Assembly (NCBI GenBank): GCA_001828855.1
Contig: MHZT01000034.1
Location: 1-64,000, forward strand
DNA: 64,000 bases
From: Rhodobacterales bacterium RIFCSPHIGHO2_02_FULL_62_130
GTDB lineage: Bacteria; Pseudomonadota; Alphaproteobacteria; Rhodobacterales; Rhodobacteraceae
Direction: 5' to 3'
The position numbers and the translations under genes are program-made. The notes under the pieces are model-generated. The model ran no database searches and was not told the origin of the DNA. It saw only the letters and a program-made list of their open reading frames with translations. Shown here piece by piece: positions 18,851 through 34,657 of this stretch (positions are counted from its first letter, which is position 1; each line of letters starts with the position of its first letter).

Positions 18851-18986
18851 TCTGCATCCGGCAGCGGTCAGAGCAGTATTTCACCTGATCCCAGACCTTC
18901 TCCCATGCCTTGCGCCAGACCATCGGACGCCCGCAGGCGGCGCAGGGTTTCACCGGCAGATCGGATTTCTTCCGCATCTTGCTCAT
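18822..18986 (-). CDS. DUF2256 small protein
   Basis: A 54-residue protein. It begins MSKMRKKSDLPVKPCAACGR and continues with a tryptophan-rich WRKAWEKVWDQVKYCSDRCR block: two CxxC-like cysteine pairs (C15/C18 and C39/C43) make a small zinc ribbon, the DUF2256 signature. ATG 18986 overlaps the photolyase stop (ATGA), so the two are translationally coupled; DUF2256 genes are known as neighbours of cryptochrome/photolyase genes. The last 11 residues (MQKGGPRPPSP) are encoded by a family A repeat and are not part of the domain. No function is known. Confidence 0.85.
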   Translation of the reverse strand: MSKMRKKSDLPVKPCAACGRPMVWRKAWEKVWDQVKYCSDRCRMQKGGPRPPSP

Positions 18987-20467: not shown

Positions 20468-20699
20468 AGAACACAGATGTAGCAAGCTGCAGGGATTCGT
20501 AAAGACCCCAAACGGCGGGATTTGGATGTGCCGCGCGGATCTTGCGGCAGGGCGATGCCACAGAACCTAGCGCGGGCGGGGCTAAGGCAAACCACAACTT
20601 GCCCTTCGCAAGCAATTCTTTGCATTCAGCGGCCTCTGGCTTGGCGATACTGCGGCGGAAAGGCAGGGAACGGTTGTGGGGTCGTGTCGCGGGCGAAAA

Positions 20700-20950: not shown

Positions 20951-22360
20951 ATGGAAAATCTGGCGGAAAAGCTGAAAGAAATCCTTGGGGAAAAGGGTTG
21001 GGTGACGGGGGCCGGCGCGGCGCCCTGGCAGCGCGACTGGCTGAACCGCTATGGCGAGATGCCTTTGGGCGTTGCGCGGCCCAACTCGACGGCACAAGTC
21101 GCGCAGGTGATGGCGGCGTGCCATGCGGCGGGGGTGGTGGTGGTGCCACAGGGCGGCAATACCGGATTATGCGGCGCGGCGGTGTTGGGGGCGGCAGGCG
21201 GGGTGATCTTGCAGATGTCGCGGATGGCGGCCATTGCCGCGCCCGATCCGGCCAGTGGCACGCTTCTGGTCGAAGCGGGGGTGGTTCTGGCGCAGGTGCA
21301 TGCGGCGCTTGAGGCATCGGGACAGATGTTTCCGCTGCATCTGGGGGCGGAGGGCTCGGCGCAGATCGGCGGGCTGATCGGCACCAATGCGGGAGGCAGT
21401 CAGGCGTTTCGCTATGGCATGATGTCGGATCTGGTGCTGGGGCTTGAGGTGGTCTTTGCCGATGGCACGGTCTGGGACGGGCTGCGGGCGGTGCAGAAAG
21501 ACAATGCGGGCTATGCCCTGCGGCGGCTGTTTTGCGGGGCCGAGGGCAGTCTGGGCATTGTGACGCGGGCGGTGTTGCGGCTGCACCCCGAACCGGCACA
21601 GCGCGCGACCGCCCTGCTGGCCTTGCCCGACATGGAGGCTGCGGTGGCGCTTGGCCTGCATCTGCGTGCCGAGATGGGCGAGTTTCTGGCGGGGCTTGAG
21701 TTCTTTTCCGATCTGGGTCTGAGCCTTGCACTAAAGCATGTGGCGGGGCTGGCGCTGCCGCTGCAAAGTCGCGGTGGCTGCTATCTGCTGGTCGAGGTGA
21801 CCGCAGGCTCGGCGCGGGTGCCGCTGGAGGATATTCTGGGGGCGGCGCTGGAATGGGGGATGGAGGCGGGGCTGGTCAGTGATGGCGCCTTGGCCACCTC
21901 CGAGGCGCAGCGGGCGGCGTTCTGGCGGCTGCGCGAGGAACAGCCCGAGGGCCAGCGGCTTGAAGGGCCGCAGTTGAAGCATGACATCTCGGTGCCGCCG
22001 GGGCGGATTGCCGCCTTTGTCTCGGCGGGGGCAGTGATCTGTCAGGCCTTGGTGCCGGGGGTGCGGATCAACCCGTTCGGACATCTGGGCGATGGCAATA
22101 TCCATTATAACCTGACCCCGCCCGAAGGGGCCGCCGACTTTGCCGGACAGGCCGGGGCTTTGGCGTTGCAACTGGCGCGGCTGGCCACCGGAATGGGGGG
22201 CAGCTTTGCGGCTGAACATGGGCTCGGACGGGCAAAAATCGGTCTTGCCGATGCGTTGCGGCCCGCCTCGGAACGGGGGGCGATGCGGGCGATCAAGCGC
22301 GCCTTCGATCCGGCGGGACTGCTGAATCCGGGGGTGATTCTGGCTGAGATTGACAAGTAA
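20951..22360 (+). CDS. FAD-linked oxidase, D-2-hydroxyacid dehydrogenase type
   Basis: A 469-residue VAO/PCMH-family flavoenzyme of the GlcD/D-2-hydroxyglutarate dehydrogenase group. The FAD site shows VPQGGNTGLCGAAV and GTNAGGSQAFRYGMMSD; the C-terminal cap has the metal-binding NPFGHLGDGNIHYN and the terminal AAEHGLGRAKI. These enzymes oxidise D-2-hydroxyacids and pass electrons to ETF, quinone or cytochrome. The exact substrate is unknown. It is preceded by the aldehyde dehydrogenase remnant and followed by the ThDP operon. The stop codon lies inside an inverted repeat GACAAGT-AAA-ACTTGTC that forms part of the motif at 22354. Confidence 0.88.
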   Translation: MENLAEKLKEILGEKGWVTGAGAAPWQRDWLNRYGEMPLGVARPNSTAQVAQVMAACHAAGVVVVPQGGNTGLCGAAVLGAAGGVILQMSRMAAIAAPDPASGTLLVEAGVVLAQVHAALEASGQMFPLHLGAEGSAQIGGLIGTNAGGSQAFRYGMMSDLVLGLEVVFADGTVWDGLRAVQKDNAGYALRRLFCGAEGSLGIVTRAVLRLHPEPAQRATALLALPDMEAAVALGLHLRAEMGEFLAGLEFFSDLGLSLALKHVAGLALPLQSRGGCYLLVEVTAGSARVPLEDILGAALEWGMEAGLVSDGALATSEAQRAAFWRLREEQPEGQRLEGPQLKHDISVPPGRIAAFVSAGAVICQALVPGVRINPFGHLGDGNIHYNLTPPEGAADFAGQAGALALQLARLATGMGGSFAAEHGLGRAKIGLADALRPASERGAMRAIKRAFDPAGLLNPGVILAEIDK

Positions 22361-22392
22361 AACTTGTCGATGGCCTGCAATTCTTGGTTTCG
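22354..22392 (+). promoter_or_regulatory. Shared regulatory motif, copy 1
   Basis: CAAGTAAAACTTGTCGATGG, then CCTGCAATT, CTTGGTTTCG. The same pattern recurs at 32081-32120 before the SDR pair: CAAnnAAAnCTTGTCGATGG, then CC, G-AATT, CTTG and TTT are conserved. This copy ends 91 bases before the ThDP enzyme start and contains a seven-base inverted repeat. It is the likely binding site of the LysR regulator encoded between the two copies. Confidence 0.6.
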
Positions 22393-22483
22393 TTCCGGCG
22401 GTGCTGCGGGCAGGATGTGCCATAATCGGATCGGTCGGCGCACAGGCGTTTTTCGCGCGGCACCACAGGCGGGAAGGACGAAG

Positions 22484-24148
22484 ATGCAAAACGGCGGTCA
22501 AGTGCTGGTAAAATCGCTGCTGGCTTTGGGGGCGACCAAGGCCTTCGGGGTGCCGGGGGAAAGCTATCTGGCGGTGCTGGACGCCTTGCATGACACGCAG
22601 GGCCAGCTTGATTTCGTGCTGTGCCGCAACGAGGGTGGTGCGGCCTTCATGGCTGCCGCCTGGGGCAAGCTGACCGGCACGCCGGGGATCTGCATGGTGA
22701 CGCGCGGGCCGGGGGCGACCAATGCCTCGATCGGGGTGCATACGGCCATGCAGGATTCCGCGCCGATGATCCTGTTCGTGGGGCAGGTTGGCTCTGACAT
22801 GAAGGGGCGCGAGGCGTTTCAAGAGGTCGATTACCGCGCCGTATTTGGCACGATGGCGAAGTGGGCGGTCGAGATTGATCAGGTTGACCGTATCCCCGAA
22901 ATTCTGGCGCGGGCCTGGACGGTGGCCACGACGGGCCGGCCCGGCCCCGTCGTGATTGCGCTGCCCGAGGATATGCTGACAAGCCTGACAGATGCGGTCC
23001 CGCTGGTGGCCCCTGCGCGCGTTGCCGAGGCCGCCGCCGATGCAGGGGCCGTTGCCGAGGCGCGGGCGATGCTGGGGCAGGCCAAGCGGCCGCTGATCCT
23101 GATGGGCGGGAGCAACTGGACCGATGCGGGGCGCTGCGCCTTGCAGGGCTTTGCCGAAGCCTCGGACATTCCGGTGCTGGCGGCCTTCCGGTTTCAGGAC
23201 CAGTTCGACAATTTCTCGCCCGTCTTTGCGGGTGAGGCGGGCGTGGGGATGCTGGCCCATGTCAAGGCGATGATCCGCGAGGCCGATGTGATCCTTGCCG
23301 TCAACGTCCGCTTTGGCGAGATGACGACGGATGGCTATACGCTGCTGTCGGTGCCGGTTCCGGCGCAAAAGCTGATCCATGTGCATGGGTCCGACCGCGA
23401 GATCGGCAAGATTTACCAGCCTGCCTTGGGCATCCATGCCGGACCGAACGGCTTTGCCGCTGCGCTGTCGCCGGTGCGGGGTGATTGGGCCGGATGGCGG
23501 GCTGCGGGCCGTGCGGCCTATGAGGCCAGCTTTGATGCGCCGGTGCAGCCTTCGCCGGTGGATATGGTCGCGGCGATGGCGCATCTGCGCGGGCTGTTGC
23601 CCGAGGATGTGATCCTGACCAATGGCGCGGGGAATTTCACCGTCTGGCCCAACAAATTCTTCAAGTTCGGCCCGAAAGCACGGCTTTTGGCACCGCAATC
23701 GGGGGCGATGGGCTATGGTGTGCCTGCGGCGATTGCGGCCAAGGTGGCGCATCCTGACCGCACCGTGGTCTGCTTTGCCGGAGACGGTGATTTCCAGATG
23801 AATTGCCAAGAGCTTGGCACCGCGATGCAGGCAGGCGCGCAGCCGATCATCCTGATCGTGAACAATGGCATTTACGGCACGATCCGCGCCCATCAGGAGC
23901 GCAATTATCCGGCCCGCGTTTCTGGCACCACGATGGTCAATCCCGATTTCGTGGCCCTTGCCCGCGCCTATGGCTATCACGCCGAGCGGGTGGCCCTGAC
24001 CGCAGAGTTTCCGGCGGCTTTTGAACGGGCGCTGAACTCGAAAACGGGGGCGGTGCTGGATCTGGATATCTCGCCCGAGGCGATCACGCCGCGCCAGACC
24101 CTGAGCCAGATGCGCGCGCAGGCTCAGGCTGCAAAGGACAAAGCATGA
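22484..24148 (+). CDS. Thiamine-diphosphate-dependent enzyme, acetolactate-synthase-like
   Basis: A 554-residue enzyme of the acetolactate synthase/benzoylformate decarboxylase superfamily. The N-terminal PYR domain has the catalytic glutamate in LCRNEGGAAFMAAAW; the C-terminal domain has the ThDP motif GDGDFQMNCQELGTAMQAG ending in IVNNGIYG. Members either decarboxylate 2-oxo acids or join them to a second aldehyde or acyl group. No regulatory small-subunit gene follows, so biosynthetic acetolactate synthase is unlikely and a catabolic role is more probable. ATG 22484 has a GGGAAGGACGAAG leader. Its stop overlaps hyuA by four bases; this is the first gene of a six-gene operon. Confidence 0.88.
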   Translation: MQNGGQVLVKSLLALGATKAFGVPGESYLAVLDALHDTQGQLDFVLCRNEGGAAFMAAAWGKLTGTPGICMVTRGPGATNASIGVHTAMQDSAPMILFVGQVGSDMKGREAFQEVDYRAVFGTMAKWAVEIDQVDRIPEILARAWTVATTGRPGPVVIALPEDMLTSLTDAVPLVAPARVAEAAADAGAVAEARAMLGQAKRPLILMGGSNWTDAGRCALQGFAEASDIPVLAAFRFQDQFDNFSPVFAGEAGVGMLAHVKAMIREADVILAVNVRFGEMTTDGYTLLSVPVPAQKLIHVHGSDREIGKIYQPALGIHAGPNGFAAALSPVRGDWAGWRAAGRAAYEASFDAPVQPSPVDMVAAMAHLRGLLPEDVILTNGAGNFTVWPNKFFKFGPKARLLAPQSGAMGYGVPAAIAAKVAHPDRTVVCFAGDGDFQMNCQELGTAMQAGAQPIILIVNNGIYGTIRAHQERNYPARVSGTTMVNPDFVALARAYGYHAERVALTAEFPAAFERALNSKTGAVLDLDISPEAITPRQTLSQMRAQAQAAKDKA

Positions 24149-26235
24149 CCTCCGCTCCGATCCGGCTGGGGGCCGATATTGGCGGCACTTTCACCGATAT
24201 TGCGTTGGAATGCCGTGGTGCGCTGTTTTCCACCAAGGTGCTGACCAATTACGCTGCGCCGGAACAGGCCATTCTGGACGGGATCGCGGTGGTGCTGGAG
24301 CAGGCCGGCATCGGGCTGGGTGATCTTGATATCATCATCCACGGCACGACTTTGGCCACCAATGCGCTGATTGAACGGCGCGGCGCGCGCACGGCTTTCG
24401 TGACGACCGAGGGCTTCCGTGATGTCATTGAAATGCGGACAGAAAACCGGTTCGAGCAATATGACCTGAACCTGCGCCTGCCGCAGCCGTTGATCCCGCG
24501 CGAGGACCGTTTTGCGGCGGGTGGCCGGATCGGCGCGCAGGGGCAGGAGTTGCAACCGCTGGACGAGGCAGCGGTCGAGGCGATTGCCGACCGGATCGCA
24601 GCCGAAGGTTTCGGCGCTGTGGCGATCGGGTTCATCCATTCCTACATGAACCCCGCCCATGAGGCGCGCGCGCGGGCGATCATCGCGCGCAAGGTGGCGG
24701 TGCCGATCAGCATCTCCAGCGAGGTTTCGCCGCAAATGCGCGAATTCGAGCGGTTCAACACGGTTTGCGCCAATGCCTATGTGCGGCCGCAGATGGCGGA
24801 TTATCTGGCGCGGCTGCAGGTGCGGCTGAAGGATCTGGGCGCGGTTTGCCCTGTGTTCATGATCCATTCCGGCGGCGGGTTGATCTCGGTGGAAACGGCG
24901 TCGGAATTTCCGGCGCGGCTGGTGGAATCGGGGCCTGCGGGGGGCGCGATCTTTGCCGCCGATGTGGCGCGGCGCTTCGGGCTTGACCGCGTGGTCAGCT
25001 ATGACATGGGCGGCACCACCGCCAAGATTTGTCTGATTGAAGACTACGCGCCGAAAACTGCGCGGACCTTCGAAGTGGCGCGGACCTATCGTTTCTGCAA
25101 AGGCTCGGGGATGCCGATTTCGATTCCGGTGATCGAGATGATCGAGATCGGGGCGGGCGGCGGGTCGATGGCATGGGTTGATGCCTTGGGGCGGATTCAG
25201 ACCGGACCGGAATCGGCAGGATCGGAACCCGGACCGGCCTGCTATCAGCGCGGCGGGGTGCATCCGGCCATTACCGATGCCGATCTGGTGCTGGGCAAAA
25301 TTGATGCCGACAATTTTGCGGGCGGCGCGATCAAGCTGTCGGCAGCCGATGCAAGCGGGGCTATCGTGCGGGATGTGGGGGGCAAGCTGGGCCTTGGGGC
25401 CGAGGCTGCGGCTTTCGGGATCTGCGAGGTGGTCGACGAGAATATGGCCAATGCCGCGCGGGTGCATGCGGTCGAGAATGGCAAGAACATCTCGGACAAT
25501 ATGATGATCGCCTTTGGCGGGGCCGCACCTTTGCACGCGGCAAGGCTGTGCGAAAAGCTGGGGATTGAGCGCTGCCTCATTCCGGTGGGCGCGGGCGTGG
25601 GGTCGGCCATCGGGTTTCTGAAAGCCCCCTTCGGCTATGAGGCGCTGGCGTCGAATATCCTGCGGCTGTCGGCGTTCGAGGCGGGGGCGGCGAATGCGCT
25701 TCTGGCCCGCTTGACGGCGACGGCCGAGGGCTTTGTGCGGGCTGGCACCGAGGGGGCGATCACGCGCGAGATCACGGCTTTCATGCGCTATGTCGGGCAG
25801 GGCTGGGAGATTCCGGTGCCGCTGCCGGACCGTGATTTTACCGCCGCCGATGTCGATATGCTGCGCCATAACTTCCGCGAGAACTATGCCCGCTTTTTTG
25901 GCCGCGCGATTGACGGGCTGGACGGGCTGGAAATTGAAATCGTCACATGGTCGGTCAAGGCACAGGACCAGCGCGCCACCCCCGACCGGATCGCACTTAT
26001 CCCGGATGGGGCAAGGGTCGGGCCGCTGCTTTCACGCCCTGTCTTTGACCCCGCCCGGGGGGAGTTCCTGCCAACCGCAATTCTCGAGCGCGGCAGCCTT
26101 CAGCCGGGCGCGCGTGTGGTCGGGCCTGCGGTGATCGTGGAACGGGAAACCTCGACCGTCGTGACCTCGCCTTTCGATGTGGTGATGCAGGCTGACGGCA
26201 GCCTTCTGATGATCCGCAAAGGGGCCATGCTATGA
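24145..26235 (+). CDS. hyuA: Hydantoinase/oxoprolinase subunit A (HyuA)
   Basis: A 696-residue protein of the hydantoinase A/oxoprolinase family, an ASKHA-type ATPase. Seen at the start: LGADIGGTFTDIAL and HGTTLATNALIERRGA; in the middle: ESGPAGGAIFAADVARRFG, SYDMGGTTAKICL and EIGAGGGSMAWVD; later: MMIAFGGAAPLHAARLCE. With HyuB it makes an ATP-dependent complex that opens cyclic amides (N-methylhydantoin, 5-oxoproline) or, in the acetone carboxylase branch, carboxylates ketones. No gamma subunit gene is nearby, so ring opening is favoured. It overlaps both neighbours by four bases. Confidence 0.92.
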   Translation: MTSAPIRLGADIGGTFTDIALECRGALFSTKVLTNYAAPEQAILDGIAVVLEQAGIGLGDLDIIIHGTTLATNALIERRGARTAFVTTEGFRDVIEMRTENRFEQYDLNLRLPQPLIPREDRFAAGGRIGAQGQELQPLDEAAVEAIADRIAAEGFGAVAIGFIHSYMNPAHEARARAIIARKVAVPISISSEVSPQMREFERFNTVCANAYVRPQMADYLARLQVRLKDLGAVCPVFMIHSGGGLISVETASEFPARLVESGPAGGAIFAADVARRFGLDRVVSYDMGGTTAKICLIEDYAPKTARTFEVARTYRFCKGSGMPISIPVIEMIEIGAGGGSMAWVDALGRIQTGPESAGSEPGPACYQRGGVHPAITDADLVLGKIDADNFAGGAIKLSAADASGAIVRDVGGKLGLGAEAAAFGICEVVDENMANAARVHAVENGKNISDNMMIAFGGAAPLHAARLCEKLGIERCLIPVGAGVGSAIGFLKAPFGYEALASNILRLSAFEAGAANALLARLTATAEGFVRAGTEGAITREITAFMRYVGQGWEIPVPLPDRDFTAADVDMLRHNFRENYARFFGRAIDGLDGLEIEIVTWSVKAQDQRATPDRIALIPDGARVGPLLSRPVFDPARGEFLPTAILERGSLQPGARVVGPAVIVERETSTVVTSPFDVVMQADGSLLMIRKGAML

Positions 26236-27854
26236 CCGACCAGACCCGCGATATACGGATGCAGGTGATGTGGAACCGCCTGATCTCGGTGGTGGAGGAA
26301 CAGGCGCTGACCCTGCTGCGGACGGCATTTTCGACAAGCGTGCGCGAGGCGGGCGACCTGTCGGCGGGGGTGTTCGACCCGCAAGGCCGGATGCTGGCGC
26401 AGGCGGTGACCGGCACGCCGGGCCATGTGAACACGATGGCCGAGGCGGTGCTGCATTTCATGGCCGAAATTCCCCGCGACCAGATGTTTGCGGGCGATAC
26501 CTATGTCACCAACGACCCGTGGAAAGGCACGGGGCATCTGCACGACATCACGATGGTTTCGCCCTCGTTTCTGGGGGATGAGCTGGTGGGCTTTTTCGCC
26601 TGCACCGCGCATGTGGTCGATGTGGGCGGGCGCGGGTTCGGGGCGGATGGCAAATCCGTCTACGAGGAAGGCATCCAGATCCCGATCATGAAATTCGCCG
26701 AGCGGGGCGTGGTGAATGCCGATCTGGTGCGGCTGCTGCGCGCCAATGTGCGCGAGCCTAATCAGGTGGTGGGCGATTTCTATTCGCTGGCGGCCTGCAA
26801 CGAGGTTGGCCATCGCCGCTTGATCGACATGATGCAGGAAATCGGGCTGACCTCGCTGGATGTTCTGGGCGCGTTCATCTTTTCGCGCACCCATGCCGCG
26901 ACGCTGGAGCGTATCCGTGCGCTGCCGCAGGGGGTTTGGTCGAATACGCTGCTGACCGATGGCTATGACGTTCCCGTCAGGCTGGCGGCGACTGTCGAGG
27001 TGCAGGGCGACAGCGTGAATGTCGATTTCAGCGGCAGCGATCCGGTCAGCCGCTGGGGCATCAATGTGCCGATCATCTACACCAAGGCCTATGCCTGCTA
27101 TGCGCTGAAATGCGTGGTGGCGCCGGATATTCCGAACAACTGGGCTTCGCTGGCGCTGTTCACGATTTCCTCGCCGGTGAATATCCTGAATGCCGAACGG
27201 CCCGCGCCGGTGTCGGTGCGCCATGTGATCGGCCATATGGTGCCGGATCTGGTGCTGGGGGCGCTGGCCAAGGCGCTGCCGGGGCAAGTGCTTGCGGAAG
27301 GGGCGGCGGCGCTGTGGAATATCCATATGTCTGTGCGGCCCGTGGCCGGGGCGGCAGGGCGGCGGGCCGAGATTCTGATGTTCAACTCGGGGGGGATGGG
27401 CGCGCGGCCAGAGCAGGACGGGCTGTCGGCGACGGCCTTTCCATCGGGGGTGATGACCATGCCGATCGAGGCGACCGAGCAGACCGGCCCGATCGTGATC
27501 TGGCGCAAGGAACTGCGGCCCGACAGTGGCGGCGATGGCACCTATCGCGGCGGCCTGGGCCAGATTATCGAGATCGAACCGATGGCGGGGCATGAGTTCG
27601 ATTTCTCGGCCATGTTCGACCGCGTGAACCATCCGGCGGCGGGCCGCGATGGTGGCGGGGCGGGGGCTGCGGGCAAAGTGGCGCTGGATGACGGCACGCC
27701 GCTGCGCCCGAAAGGCTGGCAGCATGTGCCGGCGGGGCGGCGACTGGTGCTGCATCTGCCGGGCGGTGGCGGCTATGGCGACCCTGCCGCACGCAGCGCC
27801 AATGACCGTGCGCGCGATCTGGCCAAGGGCTATGTGACGGAGACTAAAGCATGA
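26232..27854 (+). CDS. hyuB: Hydantoinase/oxoprolinase subunit B (HyuB)
   Basis: A 540-residue hydantoinase B family protein, partner of the HyuA encoded before it. Family blocks include AFSTSVREAGDLSAGVFDP, TPGHVNTMAEAVLHF, GDTYVTNDPWKGTGHLHD, a histidine in FACTAHVVDVGG, and the C-terminal GGDGTYRGGLGQIIEIEP and LPGGGGYGDPAAR. The Asp/His-rich N-terminal half forms the metal site in relatives of known structure. It overlaps hyuA and the aminotransferase gene by four bases each, so all are made from one message. The substrate is not deducible. Confidence 0.92.
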   Translation: MTDQTRDIRMQVMWNRLISVVEEQALTLLRTAFSTSVREAGDLSAGVFDPQGRMLAQAVTGTPGHVNTMAEAVLHFMAEIPRDQMFAGDTYVTNDPWKGTGHLHDITMVSPSFLGDELVGFFACTAHVVDVGGRGFGADGKSVYEEGIQIPIMKFAERGVVNADLVRLLRANVREPNQVVGDFYSLAACNEVGHRRLIDMMQEIGLTSLDVLGAFIFSRTHAATLERIRALPQGVWSNTLLTDGYDVPVRLAATVEVQGDSVNVDFSGSDPVSRWGINVPIIYTKAYACYALKCVVAPDIPNNWASLALFTISSPVNILNAERPAPVSVRHVIGHMVPDLVLGALAKALPGQVLAEGAAALWNIHMSVRPVAGAAGRRAEILMFNSGGMGARPEQDGLSATAFPSGVMTMPIEATEQTGPIVIWRKELRPDSGGDGTYRGGLGQIIEIEPMAGHEFDFSAMFDRVNHPAAGRDGGGAGAAGKVALDDGTPLRPKGWQHVPAGRRLVLHLPGGGGYGDPAARSANDRARDLAKGYVTETKA

Positions 27855-29068
27855 GCTATGTTGCGGACCGCTTGGCGGCGGTAAAGCCTTCGGCCTCGAT
27901 GGCGGTGTCGATGGCGGCCAAGGCGCTGCGGGCGCAGGGCGTTGATGTGATCGACCTTGGGCTGGGAGAGCCGGATTTCCCGACGCCGGCCCATGTGACC
28001 GATGCCGCCTTCAAGGCCGCGCTGGCGGGCGAGACGCTTTACACCGCGGCGGCCGGCACGCCTGCCCTGCGCGCGGCTGTAGCGGAAAAGTTCCGGCGCG
28101 AGAACGGGCTGGATTATGGTGCCGATGATATTGTGGTGGCCAACGGGGCCAAGCAGATCATCTTCAACGCGCTGATGGCAACGCTGAACGAGGGCGACGA
28201 GGCGATCCTGCCAGCGCCCTATTTCGTGTCCTATCCTGAGATGGTCAAACTGCTGGGCGGGGTGCCGGTCATGCCGGTGTGCGGGGCCGAAACCGGGTTC
28301 CGGCTGACGCCTGCGCTGCTGGAGGCCGCGATCACCCCGCGCACGAAATGGCTGTTTCTGAACATGCCGGGCAATCCGTCGGGTGCGGTCTATGCGCGGG
28401 CGGATTTGCAGGCGCTGGGCGCGGTGTTGGCGCGGCATCCGCAGATCCTGATCCTGTCGGACGAGATTTATGAGCATATCCTGTTCGACGGGCGCGCGTT
28501 TGTGTCTTTCGGGCAGGCTTGCCCCGAATTGCGCGACCGCAGTCTGATCGTGAACGGTGTGGCCAAGGCCTATGCGATGACGGGTTGGCGGGTTGGCTAT
28601 GCGGCGGGACCGGCACCCTTGCTCAAGGCGATGAACACGGTGCAAAGCCAAAGCGTGACTTCGGTGGCTGCTCCGATGCAGGCGGCGGCGCTGGCGGCTT
28701 TGACGGGGCCACAGGACTGTGTCGCAGACTTCCGCACCGCATTCGAGCGCCGCCGCGATCTGGTGGTGGCGGGGGTGGCGGGTATTCGGGGGCTGACGCT
28801 GGCCCCGCCGGAGGGCGCGTTTTATGCCTATATCGGCTGTGCCGCGCTGATCGGGGCGCGCACCCCGAAAGGCGAGGTGCTGGCCGATGACACCGCCGTG
28901 ACACAGTATCTTTTGACCGAGGGCCGTGTGGCGGCGGTTCCGGGGGCGGCCTATGGGCTGTCGCCGTTCTTCCGCATCTCGACCGCGACCTCGGATGCGG
29001 TCCTGACCGAGGCGATCCGCCGTATCGCTGCCGCTGTGGCCGCCCTTAGCCTTGGAGAAACCGCATGA
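27851..29068 (+). CDS. Class I/II pyridoxal-phosphate aminotransferase
   Basis: A 405-residue fold-type I enzyme of the aspartate aminotransferase family (subgroup 1-beta). The start shows SMAVSMAAKALRAQGVDVIDLG and GEPDFPTPAHV; the cofactor-binding Asn is in NMPGNPSGAVY, Asp in LILSDEIYEH, and the Schiff-base lysine K239 in NGVAKAYAMTGWRVGY; the substrate arginine is in FFRISTAT. The residue before K239 is Ala where most family members have Ser (VSKAYAMTG), a small departure next to the cofactor phosphate. It likely transaminates an amino acid freed by HyuAB. Four-base overlaps at both ends. Confidence 0.92.
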   Translation: MSYVADRLAAVKPSASMAVSMAAKALRAQGVDVIDLGLGEPDFPTPAHVTDAAFKAALAGETLYTAAAGTPALRAAVAEKFRRENGLDYGADDIVVANGAKQIIFNALMATLNEGDEAILPAPYFVSYPEMVKLLGGVPVMPVCGAETGFRLTPALLEAAITPRTKWLFLNMPGNPSGAVYARADLQALGAVLARHPQILILSDEIYEHILFDGRAFVSFGQACPELRDRSLIVNGVAKAYAMTGWRVGYAAGPAPLLKAMNTVQSQSVTSVAAPMQAAALAALTGPQDCVADFRTAFERRRDLVVAGVAGIRGLTLAPPEGAFYAYIGCAALIGARTPKGEVLADDTAVTQYLLTEGRVAAVPGAAYGLSPFFRISTATSDAVLTEAIRRIAAAVAALSLGETA

Positions 29069-29883
29069 ACCCGCGTTTTGACACTTTGCTGATTACGGGG
29101 GCGGCGGGCCGGTTGGGAAGCCAGTTGCGGCAGGGTCTGGCCCCCTTGGCGCGGCGCTTGCGGCTAAGTGATATGGCCGAGATCAAGGATGTGCAGCCCA
29201 ACGAGGAGGTGGTGATCTGCGATCTGGCCGATGAGGCGGCGATACTGGCGCTGACCGAAGGCGTGGATGCCATCGTGCATTTCGGCGGTGTGCCGCTGGA
29301 ACGATCATGGGATGCCATCCTGAACGCCAATATCCGGGGCAGCTATCATATCTATGAGGGCGCGCGGAAAAACGGGGTCAAACGGGTGGTCTATGCCAGT
29401 TCGGTCCATGCCATCGGCTATCACGGCCTTGAGGATCAGATCGACGCCAACGCGCCGCATCGGCCCGACGGGCTTTATGGCCTGTCGAAGTGCTTTGTCG
29501 AGGATCTGGGACGGCTTTACTGGGACAAGTTCGGGATCGAGACGGCGGCGCTGCGGATATTCTCGTCCTTCCCCGAACCTGCGGATCGGCGGATGCTGTG
29601 GTCATGGCTGTCGTTTGACGATTGCATCCGTCTGGTCACGGCGGCGCTGACCGCGCCGCGCGTGGGGTTTACGCTGTCTTTCGGGCTGTCGGATAATGCG
29701 GTCAGTCCGGTGGATAACCGGCTTGCGGCGCATCTGGGGTATCGCCCGCAGGACAATACCGAAGCGTTCCGCGCCGCGATGGAGGCGAGAACCCCTGTGC
29801 CTGACCCCAAAGCCCCTGCCGTGCGCCATCTGGGTGGCTGGTTCGTCGATCTGGGCCATCCTGATGACGAGGCTGCAACATGA
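29065..29883 (+). CDS. NAD-dependent epimerase/dehydratase family protein, uronate-dehydrogenase-like
   Basis: A 272-residue extended short-chain dehydrogenase. The nucleotide loop is ITGAAGRLGSQL near residues 10-21; the catalytic pair is in YGLSKCFVEDLGRLY and a serine in YASSVHAIGYH. The blocks IVHFGGVPLERSWDAILNAN and GSYHIYEGARKNGVKRVV are typical of the uronate dehydrogenase group, which oxidises hexuronates to lactones. Whether the substrate here is a sugar acid or another hydroxy compound is open. It lies fifth in the operon, with four-base overlaps on both sides. Confidence 0.85.
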   Translation: MNPRFDTLLITGAAGRLGSQLRQGLAPLARRLRLSDMAEIKDVQPNEEVVICDLADEAAILALTEGVDAIVHFGGVPLERSWDAILNANIRGSYHIYEGARKNGVKRVVYASSVHAIGYHGLEDQIDANAPHRPDGLYGLSKCFVEDLGRLYWDKFGIETAALRIFSSFPEPADRRMLWSWLSFDDCIRLVTAALTAPRVGFTLSFGLSDNAVSPVDNRLAAHLGYRPQDNTEAFRAAMEARTPVPDPKAPAVRHLGGWFVDLGHPDDEAAT

Positions 29884-31088
29884 AATCCAGCTATGATGTG
29901 GTGATCGTCGGAGGTGCGGTGATCGGGTCGGCGGTGGCCTATTTTCTGACGGCAAACCCCGATTTCAACGGCTCGGTTCTGGTGGTCGAGCGTGACCCGA
30001 CCTATGCCAAAGCCTCGACCTCGCTCTCGTCGTCGTCGATCCGCACCCAGTTTTCCAATCCGATCAATGTGAGGATCAGCCAGTTCGGATCGGCCTTTAT
30101 CAAGGGCTTTGCCAAGACCATGCAGGTTGCGGGCGAAGCGCCGCCCGATCTGAACTTCCATCAGGGCGGCTATCTGTTTCTGGCCAATAGCGCCGAACAG
30201 GAGGCAACGCTGCGCGAAAACCATCAGGTGCAGGTGGCTTGCGGCGCGGATGTGGTGCTGTGGGATCAAGAGGCGCTGCACCGCGCCTTTCCGCATCTGA
30301 ATGTCGAGGATATCCGGCTGGCAAGCTATGGCCAATCGGGCGAGGGCTGGTTTTCCAACACCGGCCTGATGAACGGCTTCAAGGCCAAGGCGCGTGAACA
30401 GGGTGCCGACTATGTGACCGACGAGGTGGTGGCGATTGGCCGGACGGGCGATAACGTCACCTCGGTCACGCTGAAATCGGGGGCGGTTGTGCAGGCGGGA
30501 ACGGTTGTCAACGCCTCGGGTCCGCGCGCGGCGTTGACGGCGCGGATGGCGGGGCTGGATGTTCCGGTCGAACCCCGCAAGCGCACGCTGTTTGTTTTCG
30601 ATTGCGCCAAGACGCCCGAAGGCAGCGCCGGGGTGAATGGCGGGCGGTTGCCTTTGATGATTGATCCGTCGGGTGTGTTCTGTCGTCCAGAGGGGCGGTT
30701 CTTCCTGTCGGGGGCGGCGCCGGTCGAAGATCCGGCGGTGGATTGGGACGATTTCGAACCGCGCTGGCCCGAATTCGAGGATATAATCTGGCCCGCACTT
30801 GCCAATCGCTCGGCGCAGTTCGAGGCGATCAAGGTGGTGAACCAATGGGCGGGCCATTACGATTTCAACACGCTGGACCATAACCTGATCGTCGGGCGGC
30901 ATCCGCAGGTGACGAATTTCATCTTTGCCAACGGCTATTCCGGCCACGGGTTGCAGCAAGGACCGGCGGCGGGGCGCGGGGTGGCGGAACTGATCATCTA
31001 TAACGGCTATCGCAGCCTTGATCTGACCGAAGTCGGCTATGAGCGTATCCTTGAAAACCGGCCCTTCCTTGAGAAAGCGGTGATCTGA
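29880..31088 (+). CDS. FAD-dependent amine/amino-acid oxidoreductase (DAO family)
   Basis: A 402-residue DAO-fold flavoenzyme. The dinucleotide site is YDVVIVGGAVIGSAVAYFL at the start, with VVERDP as the ribose-binding acid; the second FAD contact is VVNASGPRAA and the C-terminal one is NGYSGHGLQQGPAAGRGVAE. Relatives include sarcosine, dimethylglycine and D-amino-acid oxidases and FOXRED1-like proteins. It would oxidise a C-N bond, and may pass electrons to oxygen or to a carrier. It is the last gene of the six-gene operon, 39 bases before the lysR start. Confidence 0.88.
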   Translation: MKSSYDVVIVGGAVIGSAVAYFLTANPDFNGSVLVVERDPTYAKASTSLSSSSIRTQFSNPINVRISQFGSAFIKGFAKTMQVAGEAPPDLNFHQGGYLFLANSAEQEATLRENHQVQVACGADVVLWDQEALHRAFPHLNVEDIRLASYGQSGEGWFSNTGLMNGFKAKAREQGADYVTDEVVAIGRTGDNVTSVTLKSGAVVQAGTVVNASGPRAALTARMAGLDVPVEPRKRTLFVFDCAKTPEGSAGVNGGRLPLMIDPSGVFCRPEGRFFLSGAAPVEDPAVDWDDFEPRWPEFEDIIWPALANRSAQFEAIKVVNQWAGHYDFNTLDHNLIVGRHPQVTNFIFANGYSGHGLQQGPAAGRGVAELIIYNGYRSLDLTEVGYERILENRPFLEKAVI

Positions 31089-31127
31089 AATCGACCACGC
31101 GACCCTTCCTGTGCAACGGGTGCCAAG

Positions 31128-32054
31128 ATGACGGAACGTCCGTTCCGGCTGCCGCCGTTGAACGCGCTGCGGGTGTTTCACACCGTGGTGCGGCACCGCA
31201 GTTTCCGCTCGGCTGCGGACGAGTTGCGGGTGACCCCGCAGGCGGTCAGCCAGCAGATCAAGCTGCTGGAGGACACGCTGGGGCTGGAGTTGTTCGAGCG
31301 CAAGGGCCGCGCGATCGAACCGAACGAACATGCGATCCTGCTGGCCCATTTCATTCAGGCGGGGTTCGAGGAATTTGCCGAAGGCGTGCGGCGGGTGTCC
31401 AAGACCGGCCAGCGCAACCGTATCAACATGAATGCCAGCCCCTATTTCGCCACGCGCTATTTGCTGGACCGTCTGGCCCAGTTCCGCGACATCATGCCGG
31501 ATGCCGATCTGCGTCTGACCACGATGGTCGAGTTGCCGGATTTCGTCAGCGATGATGTCGATGTGGCGATCCAATGGGGGTTTGGCACGTGGAAGCAATA
31601 TGATCAGGTGCTTTTGCTGCGCGATATCAAGGTGATCTGTTGCACGCCGGATATTGCCAAGACCTTGCAGACCCCTGCCGACCTGCTGGACCGCCCTTTG
31701 CTGCATCCGGTGCTGTCCGAGCGTCTGTGGTCCAACGTGTTGCGGCATCTGGGGGTGGAAGGCACGCCAAGGCTGGGGGAGATCCGGTTTCAGGATGCCG
31801 CGACAATGCGGCGGGCAACTTTGGCGGGCCTTGGCGTCGGGCTGATCTCGACCATCGATGCGGAAGAGGATCTGACCTCGGGCAAGCTGGTGGCGCCCTT
31901 CGGGCTGGATGTGATGCCCAGCATGCCCGAGACCCAGATCCCCGGCTTTTATCTGGTGCTGCCCAAGGCGCACCGCCGCATGAAACCGATCGCCACCTTC
32001 TGCGGCTGGGTCGAACAGGAGGACTGGTCGGCCCCGCCGCACCGAGAATTCTAG
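31128..32054 (+). CDS. LysR-family transcription regulator (GcvA-like)
   Basis: A 308-residue LysR regulator. The winged helix-turn-helix covers about residues 8-67: LPPLNALRVFHTVVRHRSFRS... with QAVSQQIKLLEDTLGLELFERKG as recognition helix and wing. The ligand-binding domain follows, with INMNASPYFATRYLLDRLAQF and GVGLISTIDAEEDL. The N-terminal RLPPLNALRVF pattern is that of the GcvA subgroup. It sits between two transcription units that share a 39-base motif (22354 and 32081), so it is the obvious candidate regulator of both, an inference from position. Confidence 0.92.
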   Translation: MTERPFRLPPLNALRVFHTVVRHRSFRSAADELRVTPQAVSQQIKLLEDTLGLELFERKGRAIEPNEHAILLAHFIQAGFEEFAEGVRRVSKTGQRNRINMNASPYFATRYLLDRLAQFRDIMPDADLRLTTMVELPDFVSDDVDVAIQWGFGTWKQYDQVLLLRDIKVICCTPDIAKTLQTPADLLDRPLLHPVLSERLWSNVLRHLGVEGTPRLGEIRFQDAATMRRATLAGLGVGLISTIDAEEDLTSGKLVAPFGLDVMPSMPETQIPGFYLVLPKAHRRMKPIATFCGWVEQEDWSAPPHREF

Positions 32055-32080
32055 GCTGTCTTGGCCGGTTTCGGGGCAAT

Positions 32081-32120
32081 CAACCAAAGCTTGTCGATGG
32101 GCCGAATTTCTTGATTTGGG
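32081..32120 (+). promoter_or_regulatory. Shared regulatory motif, copy 2
   Basis: CAACCAAAGCTTGTCGATGG, then GCCGAATTT, CTTGATTTGG. It aligns with the copy at 22354-22392 (both contain CTTGTCGATGG intact). It lies 45 bases before the first SDR start. Confidence 0.6.
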
Positions 32121-32165
32121 TGTGCGGTATCATCGGTCAGGTTTCTATCAGCAAAAGGAGCAGGC

Positions 32166-32885
32166 ATGGCGCAGGCAGTCGTAACGGGGGCAACAAGCGG
32201 GATCGGGCAGGCTATCGCGCTGGCGCTGCAGGCGGCGGGCCATGAGGTGATAGCACTGGGGCGCAATCGCGCGGCGCTTGCGGCGTTGACGGCTGCGGGT
32301 CTGCGCGGCATTGCGGTGGATGTCACGGATGCGGCGGCGCTTGATGGGGCGCTGGCGGGGCTTGCGCCGGATATTCTGGTCAACAATGCCGGCATGATGC
32401 CGCCGGTGCGGCATTTCTGCGATGCGGAGGCTGGCGATATCGATCTGGCGCTGGCGGTCAATCTGGGCGCGGTGCTGAAGCTGACGCGGGCGCTGGCACC
32501 GGGGATGCGGGCGCGCGGGCGCGGGCATATCTTCTTTACCGGATCGACGGCGGGACATGCGCCCTTTGCCAATATGGCGGTCTATTGCGCGACCAAGGCG
32601 GCGGTGGGCGGCTTTGCTCAGGCGCTGCGTCTGGATATGGCTCCGCATGGGGTGCGGGTGACGGAAATCGTCGCGGGTCGGGTGGAAACCGGACTTTACA
32701 AGGACTTGCTGTCGCCCGAGGCGCGGGCGGCAATGTATGCAGGGCATTCGGCGGTGCAACCGCAGGACGTGGCGGCGATGGTGCTGGCGGTGCTGGCACT
32801 GCCGCAATCGGTGGATGTTGCCCGCTTTGATATTCTGCCCACCCATCAGGCGACCGCGACCGGCGCCTCCAACAAGGACAAATAG
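32166..32885 (+). CDS. Short-chain dehydrogenase/reductase
   Basis: A 239-residue classical SDR. The cofactor loop is VTGATSGIGQAIALAL, the NNAG motif appears as LVNNAGMM, the catalytic serine lies in FFTGSTAGHAPFANMAVY and the Tyr-x3-Lys in VYCATKAAVGGFAQ. The sequence around APHGVRVTEIVAGRVET resembles NADP-dependent serine/3-hydroxy acid dehydrogenases (YdfG-like), which oxidise 3-hydroxy acids and serine. A ribosome site AAAAGGAGCAGGC precedes ATG 32166. It is separated by one base from the second SDR gene. Confidence 0.9.
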   Translation: MAQAVVTGATSGIGQAIALALQAAGHEVIALGRNRAALAALTAAGLRGIAVDVTDAAALDGALAGLAPDILVNNAGMMPPVRHFCDAEAGDIDLALAVNLGAVLKLTRALAPGMRARGRGHIFFTGSTAGHAPFANMAVYCATKAAVGGFAQALRLDMAPHGVRVTEIVAGRVETGLYKDLLSPEARAAMYAGHSAVQPQDVAAMVLAVLALPQSVDVARFDILPTHQATATGASNKDK

Positions 32886-32886
32886 G

Positions 32887-33636
32887 ATGAAAGATCTGAC
32901 GGTGGTGATCGTGGGCGGTGGCGCGGGTCTGGGCGCGCTGCTTGCCGAGATGGCAGTGGCCGAGGGCGCGGCCGGAATCGGGATCATCGATCTGAACGCC
33001 GAGGCCGCCCATGCTGCCCTTGCGCCTGCCCGCAAGGCCGGTGTGAAAGCGGTGGCGGCGGCCTGTGATATTCGCACCGCCGATGCCGCCCATGCGGCCT
33101 TTGCCGCGGTTGCCGCAGAGTTGGGGCGGGTGGATACGCTGATCAATTCGGCCGCCATTTACCCGCGCAAGCCGATCCTTGAAATTCTGGATGCCGATTG
33201 GGATGCCTCGAACGCGATCAACGTGAAAGGCACCTATCACATGATGGTGGCGGCCATCCGGCAGATGCGCGCGCAAGAGCCGATCGGCCATATCCGTGGC
33301 CGGATTGTCAACATCACCTCGGTCGATGCGTTCAAGGCGCATCCGCAAAACGCGCATTACGCCGCAACCAAGGCCGCCGTGGTCAGCCTGACCAAAAGCA
33401 TGGCGCATGAGGTGGCCCCCGACGGCATCCTTGTGAACTCGGTGGCCCCTGCGGGCATGGCGACGGAGCGCGCGCGCGAATTGGGCTTTTTGTCGGAACT
33501 GGCAAAGGCCAGTCCCTTGGGGCGCGGTGGCGAGCCGAAGGAAATGGCCGAATGGGTGCTGATGGCCGGAGGGCCGCGCAACACCTATATGACGGGCGAG
33601 AATATCATCGTCTCGGGTGGCTATATCTACGCCTGA
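32887..33636 (+). CDS. Short-chain dehydrogenase/reductase, second
   Basis: A 249-residue classical SDR. It has a glycine loop IVGGGAGLGALLAEMA, the NSAA variant of NNAG in LINSAAIYPRKPIL, the catalytic serine in IVNITSVDAFKAHPQ and the Tyr-x3-Lys in HYAATKAAVVSLTKSMA; the C-terminus TGENIIVSGGYIYA is normal. The cofactor loop has GGGAGLG rather than the more common TGxxxGxG, which still suits NAD(P). ATG 32887 follows the upstream stop by one base, with overlapping AGGA. The substrate is unknown. Directly after its stop the wreck of an amino-acid transporter operon begins. Confidence 0.9.
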   Translation: MKDLTVVIVGGGAGLGALLAEMAVAEGAAGIGIIDLNAEAAHAALAPARKAGVKAVAAACDIRTADAAHAAFAAVAAELGRVDTLINSAAIYPRKPILEILDADWDASNAINVKGTYHMMVAAIRQMRAQEPIGHIRGRIVNITSVDAFKAHPQNAHYAATKAAVVSLTKSMAHEVAPDGILVNSVAPAGMATERARELGFLSELAKASPLGRGGEPKEMAEWVLMAGGPRNTYMTGENIIVSGGYIYA

Positions 33637-34060
33637 TCTCTGCCTCTGGGAACACCGGCCTGACTGGTGCATTCCTTGTGCCGTGGTGCGACCAAGGTGA
33701 TGGCGCATAACGCGTTGGCCCTGACCGGCCTGACAGATGCCGACGGGGGGGCGATCTGCGTTCCGGCCGGAACCTCGACCGGGACGCAGGTGGCCTCGTA
33801 TCTTTAGCCTGTCGGCGTCACGATGGAACTGGTTGCCATTGGAAAGTCCGAGGAACTGGAGGCCGCCTATTTCTCGGGCCGTTGCGAACCCTATGCCCAG
33901 TGGGGACCGGTTCTGGCGATTGCCCGCTCTGTTTCGGAGGCCCATAAGCTGCTGCCCGATGTGCTGGCACGGAAGCCGGAACTGATGATCATGCGTCGGG
34001 GCGATGACAACTGGGTCGGTATCGCCAACAGGGCGCTGAGCGCGCTGCTTTTCGTCCCGC
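33636..34060 (+). pseudogene. Remnant of aapJ, periplasmic amino-acid-binding protein
   Basis: Fragments in the right order match the AapJ/BztA family: ISASGNTGLTGAF (frame at 33636), then after a frame change and large deletion MAHNALALTGLTDADGGAIC and VPAGTSTGTQVASYL, an in-frame TAG at 33805, then MELVAIGKSEELEAAYFSGR and MIMRRGDDNWVGIANRALSA. The intact protein has about 340 residues. The last two blocks correspond to the AGRCD and RHGDxxWxDIVRW regions of AapJ. It carries at least one frameshift, one stop and internal deletions. Confidence 0.7.
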
Positions 34061-34120
34061 TGATCGGGCCTTGCGTGGGCTGCGCGGAGTCCCGAGCAAT
34101 GCGCCTGCGCGGGCGGTCTG

Positions 34121-34273
34121 TGGCGAGACATTCTGCTGATTTTGCAGATGCTTTTCCGGTATTCGACGCCGACGCAACTGCCAAGTCTGCGGGCTGCCCA
34201 TCGTCTGGAGATTTATCTGTCTGGGCTGAACACCAGCCAAGGGGGGGCGGCGGTGCTGGTCGGGCTGTTGTGA
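34121..34273 (+). pseudogene. Remnant of aapQ, permease subunit
   Basis: The frame reads WRDILLILQMLFRYSTPTQL and then EIYLSGLNTSQGG before TGA. This matches the permease block FRNIPLLLQxxFWY of AapQ/BztB. Only about 50 of some 400 residues remain. It is in a different frame from the aapJ and aapM pieces on either side. Confidence 0.5.
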
Positions 34274-34490
34274 TCTGGCGGGTGATCCATTGGGCCATAC
34301 TGACGGCGACATTTCCGGTCGTGGCCGGACAGGAATATTGTCGCGCGGCGGGCGGGGCGTTCTGGTCGATCCTCGCAAACCGGTGGCGGCTGATCCTGCC
34401 CTTATGAAGAACAGTGGCACTTGGCCTTGGCCTGTGGCGTGGTGATTGCGGTGAGTTTGCTAAGTTGCCTGCCGCAGTTTTGGACGCCTG
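34270..34490 (+). pseudogene. Remnant of aapM, permease subunit
   Basis: VIHWAILTATFPVVAGQEYC then RAAGGAFWSILANRWRLIL corresponds to the first periplasmic loop of AapM (C-x-G-ACW-x-F pattern); after a frameshift near 34400 it continues as PYEEQWHLALACGVVIAVSL, the following membrane segment. The remainder of the gene is missing and the frame runs directly into an aapP tail. Confidence 0.6.
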
Positions 34491-34493
34491 ACC

Positions 34494-34657
34494 GGATCAG
34501 CGTGACCCACGAGATCGGCTTTGCGCGCAAGGTGGCGGATCGGGTGGTCTTTATGGAGCGCGGCGAAATTCTCGAGGAAGGTCCGTCCGAAGCCCTGTTC
34601 GCTGCGCCCCGGACTGAGCGCAGGGTCCGTTTCCTGTCGCGGGTTCTGGGGCATTAA
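34494..34657 (+). pseudogene. Remnant of aapP, ATPase subunit C-terminus
   Basis: ISVTHEIGFARKVADRVVFM and ERGEILEEGPSEALF, ending FLSRVLGH, are the H-loop (THE) and C-terminus of polar-amino-acid ABC ATPases of the AapP/GlnQ type. Walker A, signature and Walker B regions are gone. This tail closes a four-gene wreck aapJ-aapQ-aapM-aapP that has shrunk to about 1 kb. Confidence 0.72.

Follow-up and report, generated by a model that had tools for sequence, protein, structure and literature searches.

A HyuAB-linked operon of Rhodobacteraceae and Rhizobiales as a candidate catabolic route for a cyclic amino-acid-like compound

What compound is broken down by an operon that joins an adenosine triphosphate (ATP)-dependent HyuAB pair to an aminotransferase, a flavoenzyme and a thiamine diphosphate (ThDP)-dependent enzyme? 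The question is raised by a locus in a stretch of 64,000 nucleotides from Rhodobacterales bacterium RIFCSPHIGHO2_02_FULL_62_130 (contig MHZT01000034.1, positions 1 to 64,000 of the forward strand), here called the window. Six of its genes (22484-31088) encode the ThDP-dependent enzyme (TPP), HyuA, HyuB, a class I/II aminotransferase (AAT), a relative of uronate dehydrogenase (UDH) and a flavin adenine dinucleotide (FAD)-dependent amine oxidoreductase (DAO). Our answer, drawn from sequence comparison, is a tentative one: the operon would serve the catabolism of a cyclic amino-acid-like compound, which would be oxidised to a lactam, opened with ATP, converted to a 2-oxo diacid and decarboxylated.

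Gene content, order and linkage

The gene places and the families given in the first-pass annotation hold, and open reading frames (ORFs), Pfam and NCBIfam agree on them; all the genes lie on the + strand. TPP (22484..24148) matches NCBIfam PRK08199 with 775.6 bits against a cut-off of 539. It is followed by HyuA, the ATPase subunit of the hydantoinase/oxoprolinase family with the motif DMGGTTAK (24145..26235; Pfam, NCBIfam), the metal-site subunit HyuB (26232..27854; Pfam), the PRK06107-like AAT (27851..29068; 519.9 bits, below the cut-off of 617), UDH, a short-chain dehydrogenase (SDR) with altered residues near the substrate site (29065..29883; alignment and structure model), and DAO (29880..31088; Pfam), whose closest solved fold is L-proline dehydrogenase. 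With its start at 22484 the TPP gene is 1665 bases long, as is its annotated counterpart in Paracoccus sp. MA; a longer ORF version from 22364 was set aside. Re-reading the junctions confirmed ATGA at all five of them (24145, 26232, 27851, 29065 and 29880).

The same linkage, which the first-pass annotation had suggested looking for in other genomes, recurs. A scan of genome contigs for DAO gave 55 loci, 46 of which also carry HyuA and HyuB, and chance clustering is therefore disfavoured. Among the nine others, the contig ends near DAO in five (L009, L017, L022, L041, L062), and HyuAB was not seen in the remaining DAO-anchored loci L037, L046, L059 and L060. Four-base overlaps are also common in the relatives: counted over the measurable junctions among 60 loci (both genes of at least 60% identity and close together), they occur at TPP/HyuA in 41/45, HyuA/HyuB in 32/48, HyuB/AAT in 38/39, AAT/UDH in 26/40 and UDH/DAO in 53/54. 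The order TPP-HyuA-HyuB-(AAT)-UDH-DAO is found in Gemmobacter, Tabrizicola, Rhodobacter, Paracoccus, Cypionkella, Roseovarius, Ruegeria, Leisingera and Salipiger, and in Mesorhizobium, Rhizobium and Agrobacterium; Paracoccus, Pseudochrobactrum and Shinella have it on plasmids. The carriers are Rhodobacteraceae and Rhizobiales, both as isolates and as metagenome-assembled genomes. By order and identity the closest relative is locus L011, with 82-92% over nine matched proteins. Sinorhizobium sp. RAC02 and Rhizobium leguminosarum carry a rearranged version of the same gene set, HyuA-HyuB-AAT-UDH-DAO-TPP with a divergent Liv-type transporter and with a GntR regulator, YdiJ, SDR2 and SDR1 close by.

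A set of 88 loci was defined by HyuA and HyuB at 52% identity or more; it contains some duplicates (L117/L014, L118/L015 and L119/L035 are probably the same records), genes past the locus ends escape its counts, and the share of DAO is inflated as 46 of the 88 stem from the DAO-anchored scan. TPP, AAT, UDH and DAO accompany HyuAB in 43 loci, TPP, UDH and DAO in 11, UDH and DAO in 9, UDH and DAO with an HpaI-like aldolase in 5, AAT with KdgD in 2, TPP only in 2, AAT, UDH and DAO in 1, TPP, AAT and UDH in 1, and none of the six in 14. AAT and TPP are thus variable, unlike the pair of UDH and DAO: among the 70 loci with either, both are present in 69, UDH alone in one and DAO alone in none. A 4-kb contig outside this count (L224) likewise shows the order AAT-UDH-DAO. 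Relatives of DAO (E 1e-120 or better) occur in 76 of 292 genomes of the window's order; among 20 loci hand-picked from the places listed by this search, UDH is present in 14, HyuAB in 13 and neither in 6 (L122-L127). The association extends to more distant DAO proteins of 48-54% identity, as eight of nine inspected loci (L128-L131, L133-L136) carry HyuA, HyuB, DAO and UDH.

A proposed path from a ring amine to an opened lactam

The substrate would probably be a hydroxylated imino acid whose carboxylate sits adjacent to the ring nitrogen, with a hydroxypipecolate as the leading guess, and may be imported by an amino-acid ATP-binding cassette (ABC) transporter. DAO would oxidise the ring amine to an imine, hydration would give a cyclic hemiaminal, and UDH might convert the hemiaminal to a lactam, modelled on the conversion of a sugar hemiacetal to a lactone by uronate dehydrogenase. 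ATP-dependent opening of the lactam by HyuAB would then yield an alpha-amino diacid, from which AAT or a housekeeping aminotransferase would form the 2-oxo diacid. The ThDP enzyme is predicted to decarboxylate this diacid to a semialdehyde, which an aldehyde dehydrogenase, encoded within the cluster in some relatives, would oxidise; the resulting D-2-hydroxy diacid may finally be oxidised, e.g., to 2-oxoglutarate, by the product of the neighbouring gene GLD. With 5-hydroxypipecolate as the guessed substrate, this would lead over 2-hydroxyglutarate semialdehyde to 2-hydroxyglutarate and would explain the presence of YdiJ or GLD. Read along the operon, the genes follow the proposed route approximately backwards. 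Each of these reactions, as well as their order, is a proposal that we infer from family, fold and gene neighbourhood.

The two predicted ring-oxidising enzymes were compared by structure models. The two PDB folds that best match the DAO model (34 sequences, mean predicted local distance difference test score (pLDDT) 90.9) are the L-proline dehydrogenases 1y56_B and 3axb, followed by sarcosine and glycine oxidases. For the UDH model (31 sequences, mean pLDDT 82.4) ranks 1-5 are uronate dehydrogenases with 48-51% identity and TM-scores by query of 0.85-0.89, with a sharp drop thereafter; the catalytic Ser, Tyr and Lys are invariant, and both the fold and the catalytic triad of uronate dehydrogenase are thus present. 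Asn112, Gly164 and Ser75 (3rft numbering), common to three solved uronate dehydrogenases, are Val, Phe and Pro in the window UDH. Among 60 homologues of at least 60% identity, Asn112 is replaced by Val and Gly164 by Phe in all, Ser75 by Pro in 48 and by Ala in 10, and Ser177 of 3rft by Trp in all 60; in 14 homologues of 40-60% identity, Ile or Val takes the place of Asn112 throughout, and Gly164 is retained in 2. Asn112 and the other changed positions are residues which we take to belong to the substrate pocket, and the changes seem to make the site less polar, as would fit a substrate with fewer hydroxyl groups. Homologues of UDH with 52-58% identity also occur outside the cluster (L218-L223), where no HyuAB, DAO or TPP labels were found in the stretches, the neighbours having been family-scanned in L218 and L220 only.

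The first-pass annotation had outlined the opening of a cyclic amide or imide, deamination to a 2-oxo acid, decarboxylation by the ThDP enzyme and oxidation of hydroxy products. These four steps fit the comparative evidence, and the outline is supported in part; the lactam itself is more likely made inside the cell than imported, since DAO and UDH are nearly always paired. The pairing could also be read in another way, which we regard as unlikely: UDH would begin the route with an imported compound, amino-uronate-like or a hemiaminal, HyuAB would open the lactam, and DAO would deaminate the product, with DAO and AAT as alternative deaminases. This would account for DAO occurring without AAT in 25 of the 69 loci with HyuAB, UDH and DAO, for AAT without DAO in L083, L087 and L137, and for TPP-DAO without HyuAB and UDH in L123; however, AAT and DAO coexist, alongside TPP and UDH, in 43 of the 88 loci, and in fold DAO comes closest to proline dehydrogenases and sarcosine oxidases. 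The position of HyuAB next to a DAO with sarcosine oxidases among its fold neighbours is what speaks for an improbable second alternative, in which HyuAB opens an imported N-substituted lactam, the adjoining DAO removes the N-alkyl group, and UDH, TPP, GLD and the SDRs process the carbon fragment. In the degradation of N-methylpyrrolidone, lactam opening followed by N-alkyl cleavage has reportedly been proposed, but such a scheme leaves unexplained the pairing of UDH with DAO and the cluster version with KdgD that lacks DAO.

Two side observations concern DAO itself. L012, L015, L027, L032 and L054 have an additional, divergent DAO gene on the opposite strand in the interval from DAO to SDR1, with a product 51-56% identical to the first DAO; in most of these loci it is followed by genes for a shikimate-dehydrogenase-like protein, an SDR, a RidA-like protein and a regulator of the GntR type. 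In L122 a DAO 72% identical to that of the window lies downstream of what by eye is a phosphonate-type ABC transporter, without HyuAB, UDH and TPP.

For the predicted opening of the lactam, HyuAB was compared with caprolactamase. Pfam Hydantoinase_A, Hydant_A_N and Hydantoinase_B all score above gathering, and the pair consists of alpha and beta subunits only, with no gamma subunit gene among the ten cluster ORFs by Pfam. From the missing gamma subunit a ring-opening role had been favoured in the first-pass annotation. This is in line with a gene-order criterion by which clusters with hydAB only are amidohydrolases (PMC5214803), and with the conservation in HyuB of the CapB metal ligands D41, H99, D102 and H124 (alignment to 6yra_B, taken as CapB because its numbering fits PMC8453981); the ATP-site residues D11 and D295 of CapA are kept in HyuA as well (alignment to 6yra_A). 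The argument is weakened by the Lys of the HyuA motif DMGGTTAK at the position of Asp302 of CapA. Asp stands at this position in CapA, N-methylhydantoinase, acetone carboxylase and chain 5l9w_B of acetophenone carboxylase, whereas chain 5l9w_b has Lys like HyuA; none of the six PDB matches examined is a near relative with the motif Lys. The Lys is found in 124 of 124 HyuA sequences of at least 45% identity (repeated loci included, and counting those that showed the motif pattern), and four more distant HyuA sequences, three of them from the window's own genome, all have Asp. It might accordingly be supposed that HyuAB is a carboxylase, or acts through carboxyphosphate, rather than a simple lactamase; with the gamma subunit gene missing and the amidohydrolase criterion pointing the other way, we consider this quite improbable. 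Both CapAB NCBIfam equivalog cut-offs are missed (438.8 and 172.7 bits against 1000), and a plain 5-oxoprolinase or caprolactamase was rejected on the missed CapA/CapB cut-offs.

Further HyuAB pairs were seen on the way. The window's own genome has a second HyuB-HyuA pair in each of L238 and L239 (end of contig C40, and contig C43), 28-36% identical to the window pair and with the Asp motif, together with genes for a Liv-like transporter and for an aldehyde dehydrogenase that shares 70-71% identity with the one near the relatives' clusters; the two look like one duplicated second HyuAB locus, with one TAG inside the aldehyde dehydrogenase match of C43. In L085 a distant HyuAB pair has as neighbours a gene of the Asp/Glu racemase family and one annotated as histidinol-phosphate transaminase, and genes of these two kinds lie downstream of the cluster in L079.

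A proposed 2-oxo diacid and apparently exchangeable last steps

In the proposed route via an internally made lactam, deamination precedes the ThDP enzyme. TPP passes the curated cut-off of PRK08199 and misses that of acetolactate synthase TIGR00118 (350 vs 538.35); enzymes of this type occur in 143 of 385 genomes of the class (E 1e-140 or better). Outside the cluster, among TPP homologues of 60-69% identity, a PRK09257 aminotransferase (507-512 bits vs a cut-off of 377) adjoins TPP in three of five fetched loci (L226, L227, L229), and L123 has the order M20 hydrolase-TPP-DAO-peptide-type transporter (the latter named by eye) without HyuAB and UDH. These contexts suggest that TPP acts after deamination. 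An aminotransferase as the deaminating enzyme fits this outline, but AAT is absent from a good part of the loci, as given above.

The last steps appear to be exchangeable. GLD, an FAD-linked D-2-hydroxyacid dehydrogenase-like protein with the Pfam domains FAD_binding_4 and FAD-oxidase_C (20951..22360, +), has GlcD as its top NCBIfam match (227 bits, below the cut-off of 567.9) and misses the YdiJ equivalog cut-off (97.1 vs 1350), while YdiJ of R. leguminosarum (L082, without GLD) passes it with 1494.3; GLD is present in 12 and YdiJ in 3 of the 88 loci, never together. On plasmids of S. meliloti and Ensifer (L083, L087), HyuAB and AAT are followed by KdgD (412.7 and 404 vs a cut-off of 373.95) and then by an aldehyde dehydrogenase, which in S. 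meliloti is closest to 2-oxoglutarate-semialdehyde dehydrogenase, below cut-off (541.5 vs 770). This type of aldehyde dehydrogenase is found in 14 of the 88 loci, eleven of which have it upstream of GLD or TPP; there is none beside the window operon, and copies 67-68% identical lie elsewhere in the genome. In L128-L131 and L135, which belong to the window's family, an HpaI/GarL-like aldolase lies between DAO and UDH; the aldolase of L128, which represents all five in the family scan, reaches 287.3 bits with HpaI (cut-off 368.8). KdgD, GarL/HpaI and ThDP decarboxylases act on 2-oxo acids, and the common intermediate is therefore likely a 2-oxo diacid of about six carbons, probably hydroxylated. 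A KdgD above cut-off was not found in the window's genome (best 127.5 vs 373.95), so that the ThDP enzyme is the likely route there.

Downstream of DAO, a GcvA-like LysR-family gene (31128..32054, +; 235.1 bits, below the cut-off of 288) may encode the regulator of the cluster. It is followed by two short-chain dehydrogenases assigned by Pfam, SDR1 (32166..32885, +) and SDR2 (32887..33636, +), present in 39 and 37 of the 88 loci, respectively; the corrected start of SDR2 gives 750 bases, as in the annotated homologue of Paracoccus sp. MA, and the longer version from 32737 was set aside. A decayed remnant of an Aap-type amino-acid ABC transporter (33670..34654, +; partial matches of 48-63% identity) comes next, in which fragments of three of the four genes survive, namely those for the substrate-binding protein, for one permease and for the ATPase; no match to the second permease was found in 33670-34654. 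At the same place several relatives, such as L012, L024 and Paracoccus sp. MA, carry the intact four-gene transporter, and amino-acid-type transporters of three kinds lie beside the clusters of relatives. The window strain must either take up the compound by another transporter, or the pathway is fading. Genes similar to trans-3-hydroxyproline dehydratase (L011, L021, L025, L031) and pyrroline-5-carboxylate reductase (L011, L021, L025) next to the cluster agree with a cyclic imino acid as substrate, though they are few. Upstream of GLD, an ORF on the - strand (18983-20485) resembles deoxyribodipyrimidine photolyase by eye and sits where some relatives carry the aldehyde dehydrogenase.

Points against the route, known systems and meaning

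Several observations weigh against the proposed oxidation to a lactam followed by ATP-dependent opening. To our knowledge, oxidation of a hemiaminal to a lactam has not been demonstrated in the SDR family of UDH, and the Lys of HyuA stands in place of a caprolactamase residue, as described. The genes also part company: DAO occurs without HyuAB and UDH in L123 (with TPP) and in L122 and L124-L127 (without any of them) and may therefore be a deaminase; L137 carries UDH and AAT without DAO; L138 and L139 have TPP-HyuAB and an aldehyde dehydrogenase without AAT, UDH and DAO; and AAT is missing from more than a third of the loci with HyuAB, UDH and DAO (25/69). No aminotransferase lies beside TPP in L225 and L228, two of the five fetched TPP loci. 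Of 20 loci hand-picked from the places listed by a HyuB search, other cluster genes are present in four only (L137, L138, L139, L141), which indicates that the HyuAB branch has further uses. Finally, KdgD implies a dihydroxylated C6 intermediate and YdiJ/GLD a less hydroxylated one, which may not be reconcilable with one substrate.

Known systems share parts of the route. The degradation of lysine and pipecolate to D-2-hydroxyglutarate involves AmaA, AmaB, HglS and YdiJ; it resembles the proposed route in the oxidation of an imino-acid ring, in a 2-oxo diacid and in a D-2-hydroxyglutarate dehydrogenase, whereas ATP-dependent lactam opening and a ThDP enzyme are proposed for the window instead. 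The N-methylpyrrolidone cluster of Alicycliphilus is said to combine HyuAB with an amino-acid-oxidase-type flavoenzyme, as in the window, without UDH, a ThDP enzyme and an aminotransferase. CapAB and OplAB are two-subunit ATP-dependent enzymes with the same ATP and metal residues, and a transaminase follows the lactamase step in caprolactam degradation (PMC8453981; PMC11033972), as AAT would here; unlike them, the window pair lies below the CapA/CapB cut-offs, has Lys for Asp302 and is linked to UDH and DAO. The oxidative uronate pathway comprises Udh, a lactone step, a KdgD-type dehydratase-decarboxylase and 2-oxoglutarate semialdehyde dehydrogenase (PMC6353982). UDH is a near relative of its first enzyme, and related HyuAB clusters include KdgD and an enzyme resembling 2-oxoglutarate-semialdehyde dehydrogenase; the window differs in adding HyuAB, AAT, DAO and the ThDP enzyme, in the changed UDH residues and in having no KdgD in the cluster.

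Characterised relatives exist for all the enzyme families, but it is very improbable that the locus encodes one of the established pathways (those for 5-oxoproline, caprolactam, creatinine/hydantoin or hydroxyproline, or the oxidative uronate pathway), as equivalog cut-offs are missed for CapA, CapB, GlcD, acetolactate synthase and Azf and no KdgD above cut-off is present in the genome. Hydantoin and creatinine are disfavoured, no carbamoylase-type gene being named in the annotated records of the relatives, to which the search for carbamoylases was confined. The first-pass annotation knew of no described pathway with this gene set, and none was found in the open-access literature, most subscription journals lying outside the search; the homarine operon and the degradation of hydroxylysine, hydroxypipecolate and N-methylpyrrolidone gave no match in this literature either.

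Taken more broadly, and doubtfully, the operon may be a nitrogen version of the oxidative uronate pathway, in which a proline-dehydrogenase-like DAO, the uronate-dehydrogenase relative UDH and a Lys-motif HyuAB would form an unrecognised route, spread across the Alphaproteobacteria, for hydroxylated pipecolates or imino acids like them. The wide spread points to a common, unrecognised nitrogen compound, and the route would assign a testable role to the Lys-motif branch of HyuAB and to a common family of ThDP enzymes.

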